DNA of 22,227 bases. It comes from a virus. The stretch covers positions 1-22,227 of the IMG/VR virus record IMGVR_UViG_3300045919_000722; one strand, 5' to 3'. Position numbers and translations under genes: made by a program. How positions within the stretch are numbered: position 1 is the stretch's first letter; every line of letters begins with the position of its first letter. Of this stretch, positions 6,857-19,440 are shown one piece after another. Under the pieces are notes generated by a model that was given only the letters and a program-made list of their open reading frames with translations, was not told where the DNA came from and ran no database searches.

Positions 6857-7072
6857 ATGAAGACCCGTGGATTTACCCTCATCGAACTCTTGGTTGTCCT
6901 GGTGGCCATCGCCATCGCCACCACGATCTTCTATCAGCTGGGCTACGGTCACAGCACCGAACATGCCCGAGCCGGCCACTTCGAGTGCAAGGGCGGCTTC
7001 ACCTTCAAGGTGGAGGAGAACGGCGACGCCCGGCCTGCCACCAACACCGAGGTCGCTCAAGCGAAGTGCTGA
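6857..7072 (+). CDS. Type IV prepilin-like protein, 71 aa
   Basis: ATG at 6857 has AGGAG nine bases ahead. Residues 1-5 (MKTRG) form a short basic leader ending in Gly, followed by FTLIELLVVLVAIAIA. This is an exact class III (prepilin) signal: cleavage after G5 by a PilD-type peptidase, Phe at +1 and Glu at +5 (E10), then the hydrophobic assembly helix. The remaining 45 or so residues form a small periplasmic domain with C44 and C71, a possible disulfide, ending in RPATNTEVAQAKC. It is far shorter than a normal major pilin or pseudopilin. The next gene repeats its C-terminal domain. A phage pilin mimic could enter the host type IV pilus or type II secretion machinery; that is inference. Confidence 0.85.
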   Translation: MKTRGFTLIELLVVLVAIAIATTIFYQLGYGHSTEHARAGHFECKGGFTFKVEENGDARPATNTEVAQAKC

Positions 7073-7079
7073 GGTCTAC

Positions 7080-7292
7080 ATGAACAAGTACATCCCTACA
7101 TCCGCTGAAGTGCTGATCATTGTCGCGCTTGCAGCCGGTGCTGCCGTTGCCATCATACGGGCAGCGATACCTACCATGACCGTCCCCAAGGCAAAACTCG
7201 AGTTTCAGTGCAAGAACGGGGTGGCCTTCGTGCTGGATGAGGATGGCGTACGCCCTGCCACCGACCGCGAGGTGGCTTCGGCCAAGTGCTGA
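7080..7292 (+). CDS. TM-anchored paralogue of the prepilin-like protein's C-terminal domain
   Basis: ATG at 7080 (GAGG seven bases ahead) is the sensible start of a frame open further upstream. The 70-residue product has one TM segment (about residues 10-31, AEVLIIVALAAGAAVAII) without a prepilin motif. Its C-terminal domain aligns with that of the preceding gene: F-x-CK-x-G then RPAT-x2-EVA-x-AKC, about 17 identities in 30 positions, with both cysteines kept (C44, C70). The two genes thus arose by duplication, with different membrane anchors. The domain would face the periplasm in both. Function unknown. The stop overlaps the next start (TGATG). Confidence 0.8.
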   Translation: MNKYIPTSAEVLIIVALAAGAAVAIIRAAIPTMTVPKAKLEFQCKNGVAFVLDEDGVRPATDREVASAKC

Positions 7293-9276: not shown

Positions 9277-9584
9277 GCTCAGATGCTCAATGGGCCCAGC
9301 GCCCCTTCTCAGTGGTGGTGTTGATCGACAGCCAAAAGTACTGGACCACCGAGGAGCCGACGATGCTGACGCCCGAGGCCGCTCAGGGGCTACTGGATAG
9401 GACGCGCGGCATGATCGATGAGAAGGTCATGCTGTACCAGATCGGTGGCTACAAGGTGCCGGGGCTCTCGCTCTACCGCCGGTGGCCGCAGGCCCAATAC
9501 ATCGATGCGCAGGCCATTATCTCGGCACATGCTCTTTCACGTAACGTCGTCACCGTTGCCTTGGTACCGGAGCAGGTCAAGTGA
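9273..9584 (+). CDS. Hypothetical protein, 103 aa
   Basis: GTG at 9273 is preferred because GGAG (9261-9264) sits nine bases ahead and the GTGA overlap matches neighbouring junctions; ATG at 9363 (MLTPEAA) would give a 73-residue form. The sequence has a beta-rich start (FSVVVLIDSQ), a helix (EAAQGLLDRTRGMIDEKV), then VPGLSLYRRWPQAQYIDAQ and a C-terminal strand (NVVTVALVPEQV). No family recognised. It immediately precedes DHFR with a GTGA overlap. Confidence 0.65.
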   Translation: MSSDAQWAQRPFSVVVLIDSQKYWTTEEPTMLTPEAAQGLLDRTRGMIDEKVMLYQIGGYKVPGLSLYRRWPQAQYIDAQAIISAHALSRNVVTVALVPEQVK

Positions 9585-10162
9585 TCAACCTCATCATAGC
9601 CGTCGATCAAGGCAACGCCATCGGTTGGTCTGACGGCCGTCTTGCCTACCCAGGTCTCAAGCAGGACATGGCCCGCTTCAAGGAGCTAACTACCAACTCA
9701 ACGGTGGTTATGGGTCGCAGCACCTACCTCTCGCTTGGTCGTCCTGCCGGCCTGCCCAACCGCCGCAACATCGTCCTTACCCGCAAGCCCTACAGTGAGG
9801 TGCGTGGCACCATTTCCAGCGAGGTCGAGATTATTTCCAGCCTGGACTGGGTGGCCCAACATGCCGCCGCCTCCAAGCTCACCACCTCCATCATTGGCCG
9901 CCAGACAGGTGACATCTGGATCATCGGTGGCGCCAGCGTCTACGACGAGGCCCTGAAGAAGGGTATCGTTGACGAGATCTACCTGACGCTGGTTCACGCC
10001 GTCAGCGAGGCCGATGTGCGGATGGAGACGGACCTGGCCTCCTGGCGCCACTTCATCATCACCGAGAAGAAGCAAGGTCGCATCTGGGCCGGCATCCCCA
10101 CCTCTCGCCAGTGGGACGGTGAGGTCGAGACTTCCTACGTCAACCTCATCAAGCACCCGTGA
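9581..10162 (+). CDS. folA: Dihydrofolate reductase
   Basis: GTG at 9581 overlaps the preceding stop; GGAG upstream supports it. The 193-residue protein has the DHFR fold order: MINLIIAVDQGNAIGW, then LKQDMARFK with D29 equivalent to the catalytic Asp27 of E. coli, VVMGRSTYLSLGRP for NADPH binding, LPNRRNIVLTR, and IWIIGGASVYDEAL, the second conserved cofactor and substrate segment. It reduces dihydrofolate to tetrahydrofolate with NADPH, supporting thymidylate synthesis during phage replication. A somewhat long insert (about residues 85-110, WVAQHAAASKLTTSIIGRQT) precedes the GGA motif compared with E. coli (159 aa). No thymidylate synthase is in the window. Confidence 0.93.
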   Translation: MINLIIAVDQGNAIGWSDGRLAYPGLKQDMARFKELTTNSTVVMGRSTYLSLGRPAGLPNRRNIVLTRKPYSEVRGTISSEVEIISSLDWVAQHAAASKLTTSIIGRQTGDIWIIGGASVYDEALKKGIVDEIYLTLVHAVSEADVRMETDLASWRHFIITEKKQGRIWAGIPTSRQWDGEVETSYVNLIKHP

Positions 10163-10302
10163 AGATACTTCCACTGCTGCTGTCGGTCTCCTTCGGCACC
10201 TACCTTTCCATGCAGTTCGAGGACCCCGTCCTTTCGATGGTCTTCTGTGCCGTCGTCGGCCTGCTGACCGGCTTCCTCTTCTACACATCACCACGCAAAT
10301 GA
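10159..10302 (+). CDS. Small two-TM membrane protein, 47 aa
   Basis: GTG at 10159 overlaps the DHFR stop (GTGA), and the stop overlaps the bactofilin ATG (ATGA), so the frame fills the gap exactly. The product MKILPLLLSVSFGTYLSMQF continues to a second hydrophobic stretch (SMVFCAVVGLLTGFLFY) and a basic SPRK end. Two TM segments joined by an acidic turn (EDP). No ribosome-binding site is visible, so translation is probably coupled. It could be a membrane anchor for the adjacent bactofilin, or a small holin-like protein; neither is shown. Confidence 0.6.
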   Translation: MKILPLLLSVSFGTYLSMQFEDPVLSMVFCAVVGLLTGFLFYTSPRK

Positions 10303-10703
10303 AGCTCTTCAAGTCCAAAGGCTTTGACACCATCATCGGTGCCAACCTCGTTGTCAACGGCGATGTCATCCTGCACGGCACGACCGTCGTTGACGGCTTC
10401 ATCGACGGCTGCATGGTCCACAAGGACCCCAACGCCGCAGCCGAGAGCACGACGATCCTCATCGTCAACAAGAAGGCTACCGTCAGGGTTACCCATGATG
10501 TCACCACGGATGTCCTGGAGGTCGCTGGTGACCTCATTGCCGGCACGGTGGATGCCCATACCCTCGTCGTCAAGGACGGTGGCAGCATCACCGCTGCAGA
10601 GATCGCATACGGTACCCTTCGGGTAGAAGGTGCGGGCAAGGTGGAAGGCAGCCTCAGGCAGCGTGACACGCCTCAGACCAAGGCCGCCGGAGGCCCATTG
10701 TAA
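10299..10703 (+). CDS. Bactofilin (polymer-forming cytoskeletal protein)
   Basis: ATG at 10299 gives a 134-residue protein, a usual bactofilin length. After a short MKLFKSKGF start, residues 10-118 show the right-handed beta-helix pattern of short repeats with hydrophobic and Gly positions: TIIGANLVVNGDVILHGTTV, VDGFIDGCMV, LEVAGDLIAGTVDAHTLVV, GSITAAEIAYGTLRVEGAGK. Bactofilins polymerise without nucleotide into filaments that organise cell-wall enzymes, stalks and chromosome-segregation proteins in bacteria. The C-terminus (RQRDTPQTKAAGGPL) is a short disordered tail. It lies in an operon with a two-TM protein directly upstream. A phage copy may interfere with host cell shape or scaffold a phage structure. 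Confidence 0.82.
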   Translation: MKLFKSKGFDTIIGANLVVNGDVILHGTTVVDGFIDGCMVHKDPNAAAESTTILIVNKKATVRVTHDVTTDVLEVAGDLIAGTVDAHTLVVKDGGSITAAEIAYGTLRVEGAGKVEGSLRQRDTPQTKAAGGPL

Positions 10704-10800
10704 CCTACAACATCTCACAACTTCTCTCACCGGGTAGTAGAATGACTATCTGGCAGCGTAAATACACCGTAACATCCAGCACCCATAAGGAAGCAACCAG
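10704..10800 (+). promoter_or_regulatory. Promoter region of the PrkA-YeaH-SpoVR cassette
   Basis: The gap holds TAGAAT at 10738-10743 as a possible -10 box with a weak -35. CGTAAATAC at 10757-10765 resembles the TAGTAAATA sites at 1351 and 4609 and, loosely, the T4 late box TATAAATA. AAGGA at 10788-10792 is the ribosome-binding site for the ATG at 10801. I see no strong terminator for the bactofilin operon. Confidence 0.4.
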
Positions 10801-12759
10801 ATGAACGCCCTCTCCGCACTTTCGGCCACTTTCGCCAGTCGCTTTGCACAACCGGAGATCATGTCTCTGGAAGACTACCTGCAGCGCTGCAAGGCCGACC
10901 CGCTGGCCTACGCTACTGCCGCCGAGCGCATGGTCGCCGCCATTGGTCAGCCCATCGTCATCGACACCAGCGAAGATGCCCGACTGTCACGCATCCACTC
11001 CAACAAGAAGATCCGGGTCTACCCGTCCTTCAGCGACTTCTTTGGTGCTGAAGATGCCGTCGAGCGCATCGCCGCCTACTTCCGCAACAGCGCCGCGGGT
11101 CTCGAAGAGAGCAAGCAGATCCTGTACCTCAAGGGCCCCGTCGGTGGTGGCAAGTCCTCCCTGGCAGAGCGCCTGAAGGCGCTGATGCAGAATGCCGCCA
11201 TCTATGTCCTCTACGACGACAGCGAGAAGGACCCCGAGCGCAAGATGTCGCCGGTGTTGGACAGTCCGCTGGGCCTCTTCAACGCCTTTGAGCACGCCGA
11301 CCTGCTCGAGACGACCTACGGCATCCCCCGCCGCTACCTCAGCACCGTCATGTCTGGCTGGGCCCAGCAGAAGCTGCAGGAGTTCGGCGGCGACATCACC
11401 AAGTTCAAGGTCATCAAGGTCTTCCCGAACAAGGACAGCCAGCTCGGCATCATGAAGGTTGAGCCGGGCGACGAGAACAACCAGGACGTCTCGGTGCTCA
11501 TCGGCAAGACCGACATCCGCAAGCTCGAGAAGTTCCCGCAGAACCACCCGTACTCGTACAGCTACAGCGGCGGCCTGAACCGCACCAACCAGGGCCTGAT
11601 GGACTTTGCCGAGATGTTCAAGGCCAACATCAAGACGCTGAACCCGCTGCTGATGGCCACCCAGGAACACAACTACCAGGGCACCGAAGCCATCCCCGCC
11701 ATGCCGTACACCGGCATCATCATGGCCCACTCCAACGAGAGCGAGTGGTTCAACTTCCGCAACAACAAGACCAACGAGGCCTTCCTGGACCGGGTCTACA
11801 TCGTCGATGTGCCGTATTGCCTGCGCACCGATGAAGAGATCCGCATCTACGAGAAGATGCTGGGCGGCTCCAGCCTGTCGACGGCGCCGTGCGCCCCTGG
11901 CACCCTGAAGATGCTGGCGCAGTGGTCGATCCTGACCCGCCTGAAGAAGCCCGACAACAGCACGATCTATGCCAAGCTGCGGGTCTACAACGGCGACAAT
12001 GTCAAGGACACGATGCCCAACGCCAAGCCGTTCGAGGAGTACAAGGCCCTGGCCGGCAACGACGAAGGCATGAAGGGCATGTCCACCCGCTTCGCCTTCA
12101 AGGTCCTCTCGGCCACCTTCGACCTTCGCCCTGAAGAGCGTCAGGCCAACCCGATCGACCTGATGTATGTCATCGAGGAGGCCGTCCGCAAGGAGAACCT
12201 GCCGAAGGAGATGACGGACGAGTACCTGGCCTTCATCAAGGACCACCTGCAGCCGAAGTACTTCGAGTTCCTGGAGAAGGAGCTGCGCACGGCGTACCTC
12301 GAGAGCTACAGCTCGTTCGGCCAGAACATGTTCGACCGCTACGTCCTCTTCGCTGCCAGCTGGATCGACGACGAGCAGTGTCGTGACCCTGAGACCCACA
12401 CCCTGCTGGACCGTGACAACCTCAATCGCAAGCTCGAGGAGATCGAGAAGGCGGCCGGCATCACCAATGCCAAGGACTTCCGGAACGAGATCGTCCACTA
12501 TGTCCTGCGCCACAAGGCCAAGCACGAGGGCAAGTCGCCCCGTTGGGACCAGTACGAGAAGATGAAGACGGTCATCGAGAAGCGCATGTTCTCGGCCACC
12601 GAGCAGATCATGCCGGTCATCGCCTTCGGCCCGAAGCAGGACAAGGACACGGAAGAGAAGCACCGTGGCTTCGTCGAGCGCATGGTCGCCAAGGGCTACA
12701 CGGAAGCCCAGATCAAGATCCTCGTCAGCTGGTTCACCTCGAACCGTAAGAGCAGCTGA
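10801..12759 (+). CDS. prkA: PrkA/YeaG-type AAA+ serine protein kinase
   Basis: The 652-residue protein matches the length (about 640) and order of PrkA/YeaG. It has an N-terminal helical part, a Walker A motif GPVGGGKSS (residues 112-120) in LYLKGPVGGGKSSLAERL, the central ATPase segment with MPYTGIIMAHSNESEW, FRNNKTNEAFLDRVYIVDVP, and the C-terminal PrkA domain (ATFDLRPEERQANPIDLMYV, LHDHLQ-like helices). PrkA proteins are AAA+-fused kinases tied to sporulation in Bacillus and, as YeaG, to stationary-phase and nitrogen-starvation responses in E. coli. The downstream genes include YeaH and SpoVR, the conserved partners. All signature blocks are intact, so the protein is probably active. Its phage role is unknown. 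Confidence 0.95.
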   Translation: MNALSALSATFASRFAQPEIMSLEDYLQRCKADPLAYATAAERMVAAIGQPIVIDTSEDARLSRIHSNKKIRVYPSFSDFFGAEDAVERIAAYFRNSAAGLEESKQILYLKGPVGGGKSSLAERLKALMQNAAIYVLYDDSEKDPERKMSPVLDSPLGLFNAFEHADLLETTYGIPRRYLSTVMSGWAQQKLQEFGGDITKFKVIKVFPNKDSQLGIMKVEPGDENNQDVSVLIGKTDIRKLEKFPQNHPYSYSYSGGLNRTNQGLMDFAEMFKANIKTLNPLLMATQEHNYQGTEAIPAMPYTGIIMAHSNESEWFNFRNNKTNEAFLDRVYIVDVPYCLRTDEEIRIYEKMLGGSSLSTAPCAPGTLKMLAQWSILTRLKKPDNSTIYAKLRVYNGDNVKDTMPNAKPFEEYKALAGNDEGMKGMSTRFAFKVLSATFDLRPEERQANPIDLMYVIEEAVRKENLPKEMTDEYLAFIKDHLQPKYFEFLEKELRTAYLESYSSFGQNMFDRYVLFAASWIDDEQCRDPETHTLLDRDNLNRKLEEIEKAAGITNAKDFRNEIVHYVLRHKAKHEGKSPRWDQYEKMKTVIEKRMFSATEQIMPVIAFGPKQDKDTEEKHRGFVERMVAKGYTEAQIKILVSWFTSNRKSS

Positions 12760-12926: not shown

Positions 12927-13477
12927 AGCTTCGCGATCTCATACTTTGTAATAGCCACAACGATGGGACCAGATCTCTCTTTGAGAGTATCCTTGTTCCT
13001 GAAGTTGAGGCAGCTTTCAAAGATTGGAATCGCGCAGCCCCAAACGCAAGATGCGTCCTGATAGGCGGTATCGCGCTGTCGTTCTATGTCAAGCCGCGAA
13101 TGACCACCGACGCTGACCAGCTCTTTCTGTCGGCAGCCGACATTCCCACCGCTGCAGATGGTTTCAAGCGCACGAGACCGGGTGCGTTTATCCACAAAAA
13201 GACGCATGTTGAGATTGAGGTCCTGGTTCCATCAGCAATCAACATGACCGTAGAGCTTGCTCAAGTCATATTTGATCGTGCGCAGATTCATGATGAAATC
13301 CGTGTGGCAGAGCCCAGCGGCATCGTGGCCGCAAAACTTGGACGCTTCAAGCTTCGTGACCAGGCTGACATAGAAGAACTGTTAGAGCATTTCAAGATTG
13401 ACCTTGACCCTTATCCTCTGTCAGCAACCGAGCTTGCACGCTACGAGCAGCTTCGTCTACAACTGAGTAACCCATGA
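12923..13477 (+). CDS. Nucleotidyltransferase-fold protein (MNT/AbiEii-like)
   Basis: GTG at 12923 overlaps the preceding stop; AAGGT nine bases ahead supports it. The 184-residue protein has the minimal nucleotidyltransferase signature: a Gly-Gly turn (LIGGIALSFY, G48-G49), then R59-M-T-T-D63-A-D65, and a third acid in HVEIEVLVP (E97/E99). These bind Mg2+ and NTP in the fold. The C-terminus is helical (RDQADIEELLEHFKID). Related proteins include AbiEii toxins and MNT antitoxins, which modify tRNA or proteins. Codon use is visibly more A/T-ending (ATA, AGT, GAA, TTT) than in the flanking prkA and yeaH, suggesting recent insertion into the cassette. A defence or toxin-antitoxin type role is possible; no partner HEPN gene is adjacent. 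Confidence 0.75.
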   Translation: MKLRDLILCNSHNDGTRSLFESILVPEVEAAFKDWNRAAPNARCVLIGGIALSFYVKPRMTTDADQLFLSAADIPTAADGFKRTRPGAFIHKKTHVEIEVLVPSAINMTVELAQVIFDRAQIHDEIRVAEPSGIVAAKLGRFKLRDQADIEELLEHFKIDLDPYPLSATELARYEQLRLQLSNP

Positions 13478-14859
13478 CGACAAAGCCACCAGTCTCAGCG
13501 ACCTTCATCTTCGTCGATCGGCGCAAGACCGCCCGAGGCAAGTCCCTCGGCAACCGCAGCAAGCTCCTTGACCGCATCAAGGAGAGCATCCGCCAATCCA
13601 AGCCTGAGGACATAGATGCCGGCGGTGTAAAGGCGGCAACCGGCGGGGCAGCCGGCGCCAAGACCTTCACCAATCCTGTGAAGATCGCCCGCAATGCCCT
13701 ACACGAGCCGACCTACCACTACGACCCCAACAGCGGCGAGCGCGATATCGTGTTGGTGGGTAACGACACCTGGGAGCGCGGTGACGAGTTCCCGGTCAGC
13801 AGTGAGGGTGGCGGTAAGGGCGGTAAGGGTAAAGGCAAGGGTGAAGGCAACGGCCCCGGTGAGGATGGTGAGGATGACTTCATCATCAACATCTCCCGTG
13901 ATGAGTTCTACAACGTCTTCTTCGAGGACTGCGAGCTGCCCGATCTGCAGGAGACCTCCGAGAAGGAGCTGCCCGAAGCCGTCATGAAGCCGGCCGGCTA
14001 CCAGCGTGAAGGTAGCGCCGCTCAGCTCTCAGTCGTTCGCTCGTACCGCAACTCCATCGGCCGCCGCCACGCCTTGACCGCGGATTCAAGGTCTGAGCTG
14101 GAAGAGCTGGAAGAGGAGCTGGCGCTGCTCGATGAGCGGCTGGCAGGCAATCCCCTTGATAGTGCTGCCAACACCCGTTGGGTGGTAGTTGCTGCCCGTA
14201 TCGAGGAGCTGAAGGCCAAGATTGCTGCCACGCCCTTCTTTGAGCGGTTGGACCTACGCTACCGCAAGAGTGAGCGAGTGCAGGTAAAGTCGGCCGACGC
14301 TGTCCTCTTCATGCTGATGGACATCAGCGGCTCGATGGACGAGGACAAGAAGCGGGCCGCCCGCAAGTTCTTCTCGCTGCAGTACGCCTTCATCGCCAAG
14401 AAGTACCCGAACACCGACCTCGTCTTCATCCCCCATACCGACAGCGCCGAAGAGGTCGACGAGGAGGAGTTCTTTACGACTCGCAAGAGTGGTGGCACCG
14501 TCGTCTCTCCCGCCTTTGCTCTGGCCCACCAGATCATCAAGGCCCGCTACGACACCAACCAGACCAATATCTACCTCTCCTATGCCGGTGACGGTGACAA
14601 CTGGGACTCCGACAATCCCGAGGTCATCTCCGAGCTGGAGGAGAAGGGACTGCTGGGCAAGCTGAGGCATGCCGTCTATGTCCAGGTCGGTCACACCGCC
14701 GGTGGTGGCTTCTCCTACGGTACCAGCGTCTCGCTGTGGAACATAATGCAGTCGATCGCCAAGGGCAACCCGAAGCTGCACACCGTCAAGATCGCCGACG
14801 ACAGCGCTGTCTTCAGTGCCTTCCGGTCAATCTACTCAAAGGCCAAGGTCAAGGCATGA
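13474..14859 (+). CDS. yeaH: YeaH/YhbH (UPF0229) family protein with VWA domain
   Basis: ATG at 13474 overlaps the previous stop. The 461-residue product follows the YeaH layout. A basic N-terminus (FVDRRKTARGKSLGNRSKLL) is followed by a Gly/Lys-rich linker (about 109-130) and the conserved segment DEFYNVFFEDCELPDL. The C-terminal von Willebrand A domain has the MIDAS D283-ISGS, then FIPHTDSAEEVDEEEFF, SGGTVVSPA and DGDNWDSD (373-380). In E. coli, yeaG-yeaH form an operon and, with ycgB, are stress- and RpoS-linked. The pairing of an AAA+ protein with a VWA protein recalls MoxR-VWA chaperone systems. The MIDAS is complete, so metal-dependent partner binding is likely preserved. Confidence 0.94.
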   Translation: MTTKPPVSATFIFVDRRKTARGKSLGNRSKLLDRIKESIRQSKPEDIDAGGVKAATGGAAGAKTFTNPVKIARNALHEPTYHYDPNSGERDIVLVGNDTWERGDEFPVSSEGGGKGGKGKGKGEGNGPGEDGEDDFIINISRDEFYNVFFEDCELPDLQETSEKELPEAVMKPAGYQREGSAAQLSVVRSYRNSIGRRHALTADSRSELEELEEELALLDERLAGNPLDSAANTRWVVVAARIEELKAKIAATPFFERLDLRYRKSERVQVKSADAVLFMLMDISGSMDEDKKRAARKFFSLQYAFIAKKYPNTDLVFIPHTDSAEEVDEEEFFTTRKSGGTVVSPAFALAHQIIKARYDTNQTNIYLSYAGDGDNWDSDNPEVISELEEKGLLGKLRHAVYVQVGHTAGGGFSYGTSVSLWNIMQSIAKGNPKLHTVKIADDSAVFSAFRSIYSKAKVKA

Positions 14860-14975
14860 ACATCACCAAAGAAACAGGTGCCGTTATCGGTGTATCAGTC
14901 ATGCTCTTGGCGGGCATGGCGTGTCTTGGCGCGGTAATCGCCTTCCTCTGCTACATCCCGGAGTTCTTCAAATGA
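14856..14975 (+). CDS. Single-TM small membrane protein, 39 aa
   Basis: ATG at 14856 overlaps the yeaH stop and its TGA overlaps the SpoVR ATG (ATGA at both ends), a strong sign that the frame is real. The product has an N-terminal MNITKETGA and one TM helix (VIGVSVMLLAGMACLGAVIA, continuing FLCYIP). No family recognised. Its place between two cassette partners suggests a membrane-anchoring or regulatory small protein. Confidence 0.65.
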   Translation: MNITKETGAVIGVSVMLLAGMACLGAVIAFLCYIPEFFK

Positions 14976-16438
14976 GCGACCTGTACATCACCTCTCGCAC
15001 CGACTGGACCCCTGCCCTCATCGAGCAGGCCTACCGTGAAATCGAGAAGATCGCCCACGAGGAGCTGGAGCTGGAAGGGCTGCTCTATCCGAACCAGATC
15101 GAGATCATCGGTTCCGAGCAGATGCTGGATGCCTACGCCTCCATCGGCATGCCGGTGCACTACAGTCACTGGTCCTACGGCAAGGAGTTCCTGAAGAACG
15201 AGAAGGCCTATAACGGCGGCCGCATGGGCCTGGCCTACGAGATCGTCATCAACAGCGACCCATGCATCTCCTACCTCATGGAGGAGAACAGCATGCTGGC
15301 GCAGACGATGGTCATCGCCCACGCAGCCATTGGCCACAACGCCGTCTTCAAGAACAACGAGACCTTCAAGCAGTGGACCAACGCTGGCTCGATCATCGAC
15401 TACATGATCTTTGCCCGCGACTACATTCGCACCTGCGAGCACCGCTACGGCCCGCAGGAGGTGGAAGCCGTCCTCGACGCGGCACACGCCCTGGCACCGC
15501 ATGGCGTCGACAAGTTCAAGCGAAAGCACAAGCCTCGCATGACCGAAGAGACCCGTCTGAAGAAGCTTCTTGAGCAGGAAGAGCGCCGGCAGCGCGAGCT
15601 CGACATCATCATGAAGAAGACGAGCATGATGCCAGCAGCCGACTTCATCGAAGAAGACGAGCACATGGAAGAAGAAGAGAACCTGCTCTACTTCATCATG
15701 AAGAAGTCGCCGGCGCTGGAACCGTGGAAGCGGGAGATTATCCGCATCGTCTACAAGATCAACCAGTACTTCTACCCGCAGTCGCAGACACAGTACCTCA
15801 ACGAGGGCTACGCCTCCTTCTGCCACTACTATATCATGACACGGCTGGAAGAGAAGGGCATCCTCTCTCCCGACGCCTACATGGCGTTCCTCGATCACCA
15901 TGCCGGCGTCATCTACCAACCGACCTATGGTTCGCGCCACTACAGCGGCTTCAACCCGTACGCCATCGGCTTCGCCATCCTGATGGATGTCAAGCGCATC
16001 TGCGAGGCACCGACCGATGAGGATCGCGAGTGGTTCCCCCAGCTCATCGGGCGCAAGTGGCAGGATGCCGTCAAGGAAGCTGCCTTCGAGCACCGCGATG
16101 ACAGCTTCATCCAGCAGTACCTCTCCCCGAAGGTCATGCGCGACCTGCGCCTCTTCAGTATCAAGATGGAAGTTGACGACGGTGATGCCTCAGCCATCGT
16201 CTCTGAGATCCATGATGAGATCGGCTACAAGAACATCCGCGTCGCCTTGGCTCGGAGCAGAGAGCGCATTAACTTCGTGCCGCAGATCCGCGTTGTTGGT
16301 GCCGACCTTGAAGGCGACCGCATCTTGAAACTGAAGTACGAATCCTTCATGGGTCGTGAGATCGAGGTCGAGGACGCCAACTCTGTCACTGATATGGTTG
16401 ACTTCCTTTGGGGACATCCAGTCGAACTTGATTGCTGA
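14972..16438 (+). CDS. spoVR: SpoVR/YcgB family protein
   Basis: The 488-residue protein starts MSDLYITSRTDWTPALIEQA and is close in length to YcgB (about 510). Family-typical blocks are LYPNQIEIIGSEQMLDAYAS, GMPVHYSHWSYGKEF, GLAYEIVINSDPCISYLMEE, the HAAIGHNAVFKNN block, QSQTQYLNEGYASFCHYYI and YNPYAIGF-like FNPYAIGFAI. The conserved His and Glu residues (in HAAIGHN and LNEGYASFCH) look like a metal site, though no enzyme activity is established for the family as far as I know. SpoVR takes part in spore-cortex formation in Bacillus; in Proteobacteria it accompanies YeaG and YeaH. ATG at 14972 is set by the ATGA overlap; the frame is open upstream, but that part is a shadow of yeaH. Confidence 0.95.
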   Translation: MSDLYITSRTDWTPALIEQAYREIEKIAHEELELEGLLYPNQIEIIGSEQMLDAYASIGMPVHYSHWSYGKEFLKNEKAYNGGRMGLAYEIVINSDPCISYLMEENSMLAQTMVIAHAAIGHNAVFKNNETFKQWTNAGSIIDYMIFARDYIRTCEHRYGPQEVEAVLDAAHALAPHGVDKFKRKHKPRMTEETRLKKLLEQEERRQRELDIIMKKTSMMPAADFIEEDEHMEEEENLLYFIMKKSPALEPWKREIIRIVYKINQYFYPQSQTQYLNEGYASFCHYYIMTRLEEKGILSPDAYMAFLDHHAGVIYQPTYGSRHYSGFNPYAIGFAILMDVKRICEAPTDEDREWFPQLIGRKWQDAVKEAAFEHRDDSFIQQYLSPKVMRDLRLFSIKMEVDDGDASAIVSEIHDEIGYKNIRVALARSRERINFVPQIRVVGADLEGDRILKLKYESFMGREIEVEDANSVTDMVDFLWGHPVELDC

Positions 16439-16444
16439 GCCGCT

Positions 16445-16750
16445 ATGACACTACCATCAGTTGAACACCTCTTCTGGCTCCGTCACGATCCAGAGCGCTT
16501 TGAGTGGGCGCGCAACGCACTCATCAGTGACTACATCAAGAGCCTGCCAGAAGATCGCAGACACGCCGCCTATGCCATGCAGTGCAAGATCGACGTAGCC
16601 CGGATGAAGCTGAGCCCAGAAGAGTTCCTGGTCTGGATGCAGCGAGAGGCTGTTGAGCTGGGCGACAACCTGGCTGACCAGTTCTCCTTCATCAAGCACA
16701 AGATCGAAGATCTCAATGCCAGCGTGAAAGAGCTTGGATCAGGCGGATGA
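16445..16750 (+). CDS. DUF3135-like small protein
   Basis: ATG at 16445 starts six bases after the SpoVR stop. The 101-residue product begins with LFWLRHDPERFEWARNALIS, then SLPEDRRHAAYAMQCKIDVA. This resembles DUF3135 proteins, which share a DPE-x-FE-x2-R-x2-LI, PE-R-x5-L-x2-Q-x-x-ID pattern; the match is from memory and moderate. The C-terminus is helical. It ends the plus-strand cassette and overlaps the 3' end of the convergent desaturase gene by 38 nt, leaving no room for a separate terminator. Confidence 0.65.
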   Translation: MTLPSVEHLFWLRHDPERFEWARNALISDYIKSLPEDRRHAAYAMQCKIDVARMKLSPEEFLVWMQREAVELGDNLADQFSFIKHKIEDLNASVKELGSGG

Positions 16751-17456
16751 AGAGGTAGCCGCCGTCGAAGGATCCAAAGCGTGGATCCTTGGGACGATCG
16801 TGATGATGTCCGTGAAACCACTCGCCGCCGGTGAACATCAGCAGCTCCATCAGCGGTAGATCTCGAGGTCCCTTCTTACCATGCGCAAAGACATGGTGAA
16901 AGGAGCTTGCCAGGTGCAGCCAACCGACCGGTATTAGGTACCCAAAGATCAGCGCCATTGGCGATATCAGCCAGAAGAGCAGCGCCGTTGCAAGCACGAC
17001 CAGCGTGTAGTATCGATGCATAAATCTATGCAGCGGGTCACGATAAAGACGTATCAGAACACGTCGATCAAAGATCGTTGGGTTGTTTCTCTTCCACAGC
17101 AGGTACCACAAACCTGAGTAGTGTGGGTCTTTCTCGGTGTCGTAGTAGCGATGGTGTGAGGCATGCATCGCCGCCCATTGCACCGTTGATCCATAGACAC
17201 CGATCGTGCCAAGATAGGCAAGAATAAGGTGCCAATATCTTGGCACCCTGAAGGCGCGATGGCAGAAGAGGCGATGCATGCCAACAGTGACACCCATCAA
17301 CACCAAGAACGAGTTTACGGCGGCTAGTACCAACCACCAAGCGCTGATGGCGCCGACGCTGATGGAGTAACCCGCATATGCCATTGCCACCAAGCCGACA
17401 TACGACATGATCGGTGTTAGCACCAGTTGGTGGGTGAAAATGCGCGAGAGCTTCAT
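16713..17456 (-). CDS. Membrane fatty-acid desaturase (acyl-CoA Delta9 type)
   Basis: The 247-residue membrane protein has all three His boxes of the di-iron desaturases: H61-RLFC-H66, H98-AS-HH102 and H215-GH-HH219, plus an extra H181 region (WLHLASSFHH). Hydrophobic segments lie at about 14-56, 77-94 and 152-180, giving four TM helices with the boxes in the cytoplasm. Such enzymes use O2 and reduced ferredoxin or cytochrome b5 to add a cis double bond to an acyl chain. It is shorter than typical bacterial DesA/DesC proteins (about 300) but complete in motifs. ATG overlaps the stop of the upstream gene (ATGA). A phage copy may adjust host membrane fluidity; product position is unknown. Confidence 0.9.
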   Translation of the reverse strand: MKLSRIFTHQLVLTPIMSYVGLVAMAYAGYSISVGAISAWWLVLAAVNSFLVLMGVTVGMHRLFCHRAFRVPRYWHLILAYLGTIGVYGSTVQWAAMHASHHRYYDTEKDPHYSGLWYLLWKRNNPTIFDRRVLIRLYRDPLHRFMHRYYTLVVLATALLFWLISPMALIFGYLIPVGWLHLASSFHHVFAHGKKGPRDLPLMELLMFTGGEWFHGHHHDRPKDPRFGSFDGGYLFIRLIQALSRWH

Positions 17457-18375: not shown

Positions 18376-19416
18376 TTAGCCAAGTGTGCCAAGACGGGTG
18401 CCAGTGACCACCCATGTGATGTTGGAGTTGCCAGAGGTTGCTGCTCCAGCAGCGCCGCCAGCAGCGCCGTTGACAAAGCCAAGGTTGTAGAAAGCAGCTG
18501 ATGAGGTAGCTGGTGCGCCACCCGTTGCACCACCGGAGCCAAGGGCTCCACCCGTGCCACCCGCACCGCCTGCACAGATGCCGGTTGCGTTACTGGCAAA
18601 GCCACCGGCACCCACAGCTGCCAGAGTTCCAGTCGTACCCGTACCGGCTGCGAGATTCTGGCCGGTCGTGCCGCCCGCACCTGTAGATCCAGCACCGCCC
18701 GTTGAGACGCCGATACCACCGCGACCACCGCCACCGCCACCGCCAGGTGCCGTGTAGTAATCGGTGCTGATCGTCTTGCCAGTGCCTGAGCTGTAGGTGT
18801 AAGACCGCTTCTCTGCGCCACCGCCACCGCCACCGCCACCGCCACCGGCTACGGTGCCATTGTTGGTGATGCTGATGGCAAACTGAGCTCGTAGGCCAGC
18901 GCCGCCTGCAGAGCCGGCAACAGCGGCAACGAAGGAGTTAGCGACGATGTTGGGTACCTGAGCTCCAGCACCGCCTGCACCGCCTGCACCAACGATGAGA
19001 CCGTTGTTGACCAGCGTCAGCGTTGAGCCAGTTGGAATGGAGCCGGTATCAAAGCCGTAGCCCGCGGTAGTTGTCCCATAGAGGTAGATGCCGCTGTTGA
19101 CGGTGACTGTAGCGTTGAGCGCCGAGGTGCCGTTCCAGCCCGCCGCTATCGCGGCGGTACGCAGGTTGTAGTTTGCCGTATTGCTGGAGATGGTTGCCGT
19201 AAAGGTGAAGGTCTTTGAGGTACCGCGAAACATGCCCATCCGAATGGTGCTGCTCGTTGAGATCGGCGTTCCATCGGTAGCAGAGGTTGCCGTGGTTGAT
19301 GGCACATAACCGGTGGCACCACCACGATAATACTCTGATAGCGAGATGGGATTTACACCACCCGTAAACTCGGTTTGAATATCTGATAGCTTGAGAGCTG
19401 TGATTGGGACGGTCAT
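18376..19416 (-). CDS. Glycine-rich tail protein / adhesin-like (short paralogue)
   Basis: GGAG ten bases before the ATG at 19416 supports the start. The 346-residue protein opens with ALKLSDIQTEFTGG, SLSEYYRGGATGYVP and TIRMGMFRGTSK, an N-terminal module common in glycine-rich phage tail proteins. A beta-sandwich part (NTANYNLRTAAIAAGW, VTVNSGIYLYG) follows, then a long region rich in GG and GGG runs (about residues 140-330) and the end SNITWVVTGTRLGTLG. Poly-Gly runs like these form packed polyglycine-II helices in T-even gp38-type adhesins. It ends where the upstream paralogue continues into a further domain. Host receptor binding is the probable function. Confidence 0.82.
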   Translation of the reverse strand: MTVPITALKLSDIQTEFTGGVNPISLSEYYRGGATGYVPSTTATSATDGTPISTSSTIRMGMFRGTSKTFTFTATISSNTANYNLRTAAIAAGWNGTSALNATVTVNSGIYLYGTTTAGYGFDTGSIPTGSTLTLVNNGLIVGAGGAGGAGAQVPNIVANSFVAAVAGSAGGAGLRAQFAISITNNGTVAGGGGGGGGGGAEKRSYTYSSGTGKTISTDYYTAPGGGGGGGRGGIGVSTGGAGSTGAGGTTGQNLAAGTGTTGTLAAVGAGGFASNATGICAGGAGGTGGALGSGGATGGAPATSSAAFYNLGFVNGAAGGAAGAATSGNSNITWVVTGTRLGTLG

Positions 19417-19440
19417 TGAACTTGCTCCATTGCTGGCAGG

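Follow-up and report, generated by a model that had tools for sequence, protein, structure and literature searches.

A divergent bactofilin gene beside the PrkA-YeaH-SpoVR module of T4-related jumbo phages

Introduction

Phages encode tubulin-like and actin-like filaments, and the locus described here raises the question of whether some of them also encode a bactofilin and, if so, what it does there. The window (the whole stretch of DNA that was analysed) is a 22,227-base IMG/VR virus record in which an earlier note had recognised a bactofilin gene within a phage operon, remarking that no characterised phage bactofilin was known. That remark is consistent with the open-access full texts searched, in which no report of a phage bactofilin was found, with PHROGs, and with a tblastn search of INPHARED (50,697 phage records) in which three near-clade phage members (defined below), one deep-branching phage member and one bacterial bactofilin were used as queries and gave no match, a type of search that short divergent proteins can escape. 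Viral contigs were also scanned with a bacterial bactofilin as the query, a method that detects close relatives only, and yielded nothing. The window and its relatives thus place a protein family that is already known in a viral setting that is new and conserved. If phages have a bactofilin clade of their own that is fixed in an operon, viral cytoskeletons would come to include a third type, a nucleotide-independent polymer, and the linkage to PrkA, YeaH and SpoVR would provide a testable tie between a polymer at the membrane and a stress module that is itself conserved.

Identity of the protein

The genes concerned lie in the window as follows.

2476..4083, + strand: Ro60-like TROVE/vWA RNA-binding protein (PF25045, E 9.6e-52; PF05731, E 1.8e-24)
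9581..10162, + strand: dihydrofolate reductase (DHFR), constant upstream neighbour in the near clade (PF00186, E 6e-29)
10159..10302, + strand: small hydrophobic hairpin protein, 47 aa, GTG start, hairpin conserved in homologues
10299..10703, + strand: phage bactofilin, 134 aa, ATG at 10299, stop at 10701-10703; N-terminal MKLFKSK peptide, predicted right-handed beta-helix core (about residues 10-122) and short disordered C-terminal tail
10801..12759, + strand: PrkA/YeaG AAA+ protein, constant downstream neighbour (PF08298, E 1.4e-154; PF06798, E 5.5e-59)
13474..14859, + strand: DUF444/YeaH protein (PF04285, E 1.7e-113)
14972..16438, + strand: SpoVR/YcgB protein (PF04293, E 9.4e-141; PF24755)
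18376-22162: tail-fibre genes, distant from the bactofilin operon

The ORF at 10299-10703, which belongs to a T4-related jumbo phage, almost certainly encodes a divergent bactofilin. It matches PF04519 (Bactofilin) with an E-value of 2.2e-8 and 34.7 bits, against a curated Pfam cut-off of 27.9, and the match is full-length, residues 11-119 covering model positions 1-97 of 98; several phage relatives score above or just under the same cut-off. Reciprocally, an HMM built from the phage bactofilins picks up bactofilins of beta/gammaproteobacteria. NCBIfam and PHROGs contain no family for the window protein (the best PHROG E-value was not under 0.18), phmmer against the PDB produced chance matches only, and a profile search of the PDB placed 6RIA at the top, yet with an E-value of only 0.047.

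The AlphaFold2 model of the window protein, for which the input was an alignment of eight syntenic phage homologues, has a beta-helix core (mean pLDDT 85, pTM 0.78) and flexible tails (pLDDT <50 at residues 1-7 and 126-134). When it was compared with the PDB using Foldseek the top three matches were the three bactofilin entries, and VIA-align superposed it on 6RIB, the subunit of the Thermus bactofilin filament, with a Z of 17.6 and an rmsd of 1.2 Å over 101 residues, and on 2N3D and 6RIA with Z values of 14.6-14.8, the rmsd for the three solved bactofilins ranging from 1.2 to 2.1 Å over 90-103 residues. For L018, a distant relative that is missed by PF04519, the model (pLDDT 87) again had 6RIB as its first match (Z 15.2). 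A BFVD structure search gave no confident match for the phage bactofilin. Coordinates, length, PF04519, fold and reciprocal HMM all agree with the 134-residue bactofilin gene that had been read from the DNA, and the structure prediction proposed as a check on it returned a beta-helix for which solved bactofilins rank first. A chance match is excluded by the E-value, the fold, the synteny across many lineages and the purifying selection described below.

In two pairs of sequences the dN/dS ratio was approximately 0.44 and 0.22 for the bactofilin and 0.12 and 0.10 for PrkA, values which indicate that the bactofilin is under purifying selection, albeit weaker than that on PrkA, and the bactofilin evolves much faster than its neighbour. 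Few residues are invariant in an alignment of 19 phage sequences, these being Phe4, Phe9, one Gly and one Tyr (L018 numbering). When a tree was built with 29 proteobacterial sequences, the 19 near-clade phage bactofilins were set apart by a branch with support of 94/88, but branch support and resolution fall when the distant phage bactofilins are added, so a single origin of all phage bactofilins is not established.

The phage and its relatives

The description of the operon as a phage operon is borne out by the IMG/VR virus record itself and by homologous operons on contigs of 257-350 kb that carry the T4-type gp23 major capsid gene. A contig of the same species (27,123 bases) is 99.98% identical to the window over a shared 15 kb, and among the contigs with a homologous operon and an adjacent bactofilin the longest has 349,660 bases. 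The gp23 gene was found in six of nine large operon-bearing contigs, one of the six being the 368 kb contig of L052, which has the PrkA module and no adjacent bactofilin. Among INPHARED records the nearest gp23 proteins are those of Stenotrophomonas phages CM1/RAS14 and Xanthomonas phage XacN1, and the window belongs to a group of T4-related jumbo phages of which the collection searched contains no close isolate. The nearest bacterial PrkAs, at approximately 57-61% identity, are from beta/gammaproteobacteria, a likeness that offers only a hint as to the host.

A number of other genes in the window have recognisable relatives. A 71-aa ORF (6857-7072, + strand) begins with a type IV prepilin N-terminus, MKTRGFTLIELLVVL... 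(PF07963, E 3.2e-7), followed by a short C-terminal domain with a conserved Cys at its end, and homologues occupy the same block in L012, L034, L036 and L040; the ORF at 7081-7292 (+ strand) has the same C-terminal domain behind a different N-terminal TM segment. The prepilin-like protein may act as a decoy and interfere with the type IV pili of the host. There is also a collagen-like protein with a GPPGPPGPP run (5632-6126, + strand; PF01391, E 4.2e-8) and a fatty acid desaturase-like membrane protein (16713-17456, - strand; PF00487, E 7.8e-7, just below the cut-off) that possibly alters the membrane lipids of the infected cell. An HNH endonuclease gene is present at 715-1308 (+ strand; PF14279, E 5.2e-16), and genes resembling it lie near the bactofilin/PrkA block of distant phages (L215, 1944-2519, - strand; L238, 1532-2116, - strand), a hint of an older shared gene block.

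Gene order around the bactofilin

In T4-related jumbo phages the gene order is DHFR, bactofilin, PrkA (YeaG), DUF444 (YeaH) and SpoVR (YcgB), and a Ro60/TROVE-like gene lies upstream of DHFR in L008, L013, L014, L018 and other relatives. A scan with a phage PrkA alignment provided a sample of 56 PrkA contigs, among which the near clade comprises those with a PrkA at least 67% identical; the bactofilin lies upstream of PrkA on 26 near-clade contigs and on five more distant ones. After dereplication of the lineages by PrkA this arrangement was found in 20 of 23 testable near-clade lineages and in 4 of 23 more distant lineages, the twenty-fourth near-clade lineage (L197) being untestable with its contig cut just upstream of PrkA. 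Three near-clade lineages (L205/L209, L206 and L208) keep PrkA without an adjacent bactofilin and thus the PrkA module is not strictly dependent on it. The bactofilins of two distant phages, G054 and G055, are more canonical (PF04519, 83-86 bits), and G055 also carries a terminase gene.

This fixed linkage to PrkA-YeaH-SpoVR, which was absent from the earlier note, is the most informative feature of the locus. None of the 80 bacterial PrkA loci examined together with their flanks (13.9 kb at the median) had a bactofilin near PrkA, as against many phage lineages, and the association is therefore characteristic of phages in this sample. Among the bacteria whose PrkAs are closest, 21 of 26 genomes have a bactofilin somewhere, but the idea that the gene was borrowed together with a host PrkA operon is not supported, since the 80 bacterial loci lack it. 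DHFR is also part of the fixed block, however, so that adjacency by itself is no proof of a functional complex.

Predicted polymerisation and membrane attachment

The phage bactofilin is probably a membrane-bound polymer, by analogy with its bacterial counterparts. A Phe is known to be needed for bactofilin polymerisation, F105 in Thermus and F130 in Caulobacter. The equivalent position in the alignment is Val115 in the window protein and Val, Ile or Leu in its phage relatives, hydrophobic but not Phe, although the proteobacterial bactofilins that were inspected likewise carry Ile or Val there. The phage N-termini are net positive over their first 12 residues in 21 of 24 cases and nearly all have a hydrophobic residue, examples being MKLFKSK (window), MSIFRPR, MKNPFKS, MFGRKGRKK and MFNKK. 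These peptides resemble the membrane-targeting sequence of bactofilins that has been defined by experiment, MFSKQAKS in BacA with a consensus of MFSKKKK (PMC12448750), although the likeness is one of resemblance only. At the other end of the protein a motif, HLDHxSxGEQ, is found in many phage bactofilins outside the hairpin subclade and is predicted to be helical in the L018 protein (10552-10974); it is a candidate partner-binding element, and the window protein lacks it.

A two-TM ORF overlapping genes on both sides had been proposed as a possible anchor for the bactofilin. The overlaps of the 47-aa ORF are present as described, 4 nt with the DHFR stop (GTGA) and 4 nt with the bactofilin start (ATGA), and the latter recurs in some hairpin-carrying homologues. 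As to the membrane segments, Kyte-Doolittle analysis gives two in L008, L036 and L037 but one in the window copy, for which a two-TM nature is plausible but marginal. Homologues, recognisable by an FE/FAD turn and a TGR-F-P end, were found besides the window in L008, L010, L036 and L037, and restriction to this one subclade rules out a universal anchor and leaves a general anchoring role less supported than had been suggested. In most other lineages the hairpin ORF is absent and the bactofilin directly follows DHFR, which argues for the hairpin protein as an accessory confined to a single subclade.

What the bactofilin may do

From its fixed place beside the module, we infer that the bactofilin may quite possibly scaffold the co-encoded PrkA (YeaG)-DUF444 (YeaH)-SpoVR (YcgB) proteins. 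If bacterial bactofilins are a guide, beta-helix subunits would join by their ends into polymers that are non-polar and need no nucleotide, and these would attach to the cytoplasmic side of the host membrane by way of the N-terminal peptide of the M-x-x-F-K type, with the adjacent hairpin membrane protein perhaps helping attachment in one subclade. Such a platform could concentrate or localise the AAA+/vWA/SpoVR machine during the long infection of a jumbo phage and might shield the infected host or its envelope from stress for as long as the phage needs to mature. In bacteria YeaG, YeaH and YcgB are conserved together, and resistance to antimicrobial peptides is affected when yeaH or ycgB is lost (PMC2375023), which would be in keeping with a role in envelope stress at the membrane; the protease and kinase activity of the PrkA homologue of Bacillus anthracis was reported to be negligible (PMC13001217). 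The full proposal, that T4-related jumbo phages have a bactofilin cytoskeleton of their own, in the form of a membrane-attached polymer whose task is to organise the phage PrkA-YeaH-SpoVR machine, is put forward tentatively, as something possible rather than probable. If true, it would make this the first bactofilin system of a phage and would offer a handle on the function and cellular location of the widespread and poorly understood PrkA/YeaH/SpoVR module.

Other roles have to be weighed against this proposal. A classical one, in which the protein recruits or misdirects host cell-wall enzymes and so alters host shape, growth or the timing of lysis, is the best-known function of bacterial bactofilins, for example Caulobacter BacA with PbpC (PMC12448750), and the phage fold is the same as theirs; it nevertheless appears somewhat unlikely, as the fixed neighbours are DHFR and PrkA and Pfam reveals no peptidoglycan enzyme or M23 peptidase among the nearby genes examined. 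It is distinctly unlikely that the protein is a dominant-negative or co-assembling mimic which enters or caps host bactofilin polymers, disabling or redirecting them. The protein has diverged whilst keeping its core fold, and the bactofilins in 21 of 26 genomes of the group with the closest PrkAs would offer targets, although those bacteria may not be the hosts; the stable linkage to the PrkA module and the complete beta-helix favour a function of its own. Jumbo phages use cytoskeletal positioning, with PhuZ as the precedent, and an intracellular scaffold peculiar to the phage, which would bring its DNA, its replication centre or the assembly of virions to the membrane, can be envisaged. Some bacterial bactofilins act in chromosome organisation (PMC12448750), but the operon is metabolic and stress-related and the window ORFs that were examined include no ParA/ParB-like gene or other gene for DNA segregation, making this scaffold quite improbable. 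Finally, phages have many beta-helix tail proteins and a few relatives gave weak sub-threshold PHROG tail matches, but a short tail-spike-type or other virion beta-helix, the earlier note's own counter-explanation, is very improbable indeed given that the three solved bactofilins outrank unrelated beta-helices (Z 14.6-17.6), the PF04519 cut-off is passed, PHROGs has no match to the window protein under E 0.18 and the gene lies in a stress operon apart from the tail-fibre genes at 18376-22162.

Comparison with known systems

The setting of the bactofilin, beside the PrkA module of a jumbo phage, can be compared with a number of known systems. A bactofilin gene has been mentioned in giant viruses of the Imitevirales (PMC12192438), where, as in the jumbo phages, it is virus-encoded, but these are eukaryotic NCLDVs of a different virus realm, gene presence only is reported and no PrkA operon is described. 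The Ralstonia jumbo phage RsoM2USA (PMC8504454) has SpoVR and PrkA genes near each other, as here, but by its description DHFR is far from PrkA and a bactofilin is unmentioned. The phage carries in one run homologues of all three of the E. coli and Salmonella stress genes, yeaG-yeaH and ycgB, and differs in that its PrkA adjoins a bactofilin whereas the 80 bacterial PrkA loci are without one. With the bacterial bactofilins that have been solved (Thermus BacTt, 6RIA/6RIB, and Caulobacter BacA, 2N3D) the phage proteins are approximately 19-24% identical and have in common a right-handed beta-helix of about 100-110 residues and short flexible tails, and their hydrophobic/basic N-terminal peptide resembles the bacterial one. 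Some phage members have longer loop inserts, and the phage copies are linked to PrkA-YeaH-SpoVR whereas the bacterial ones are linked to cell-wall genes.
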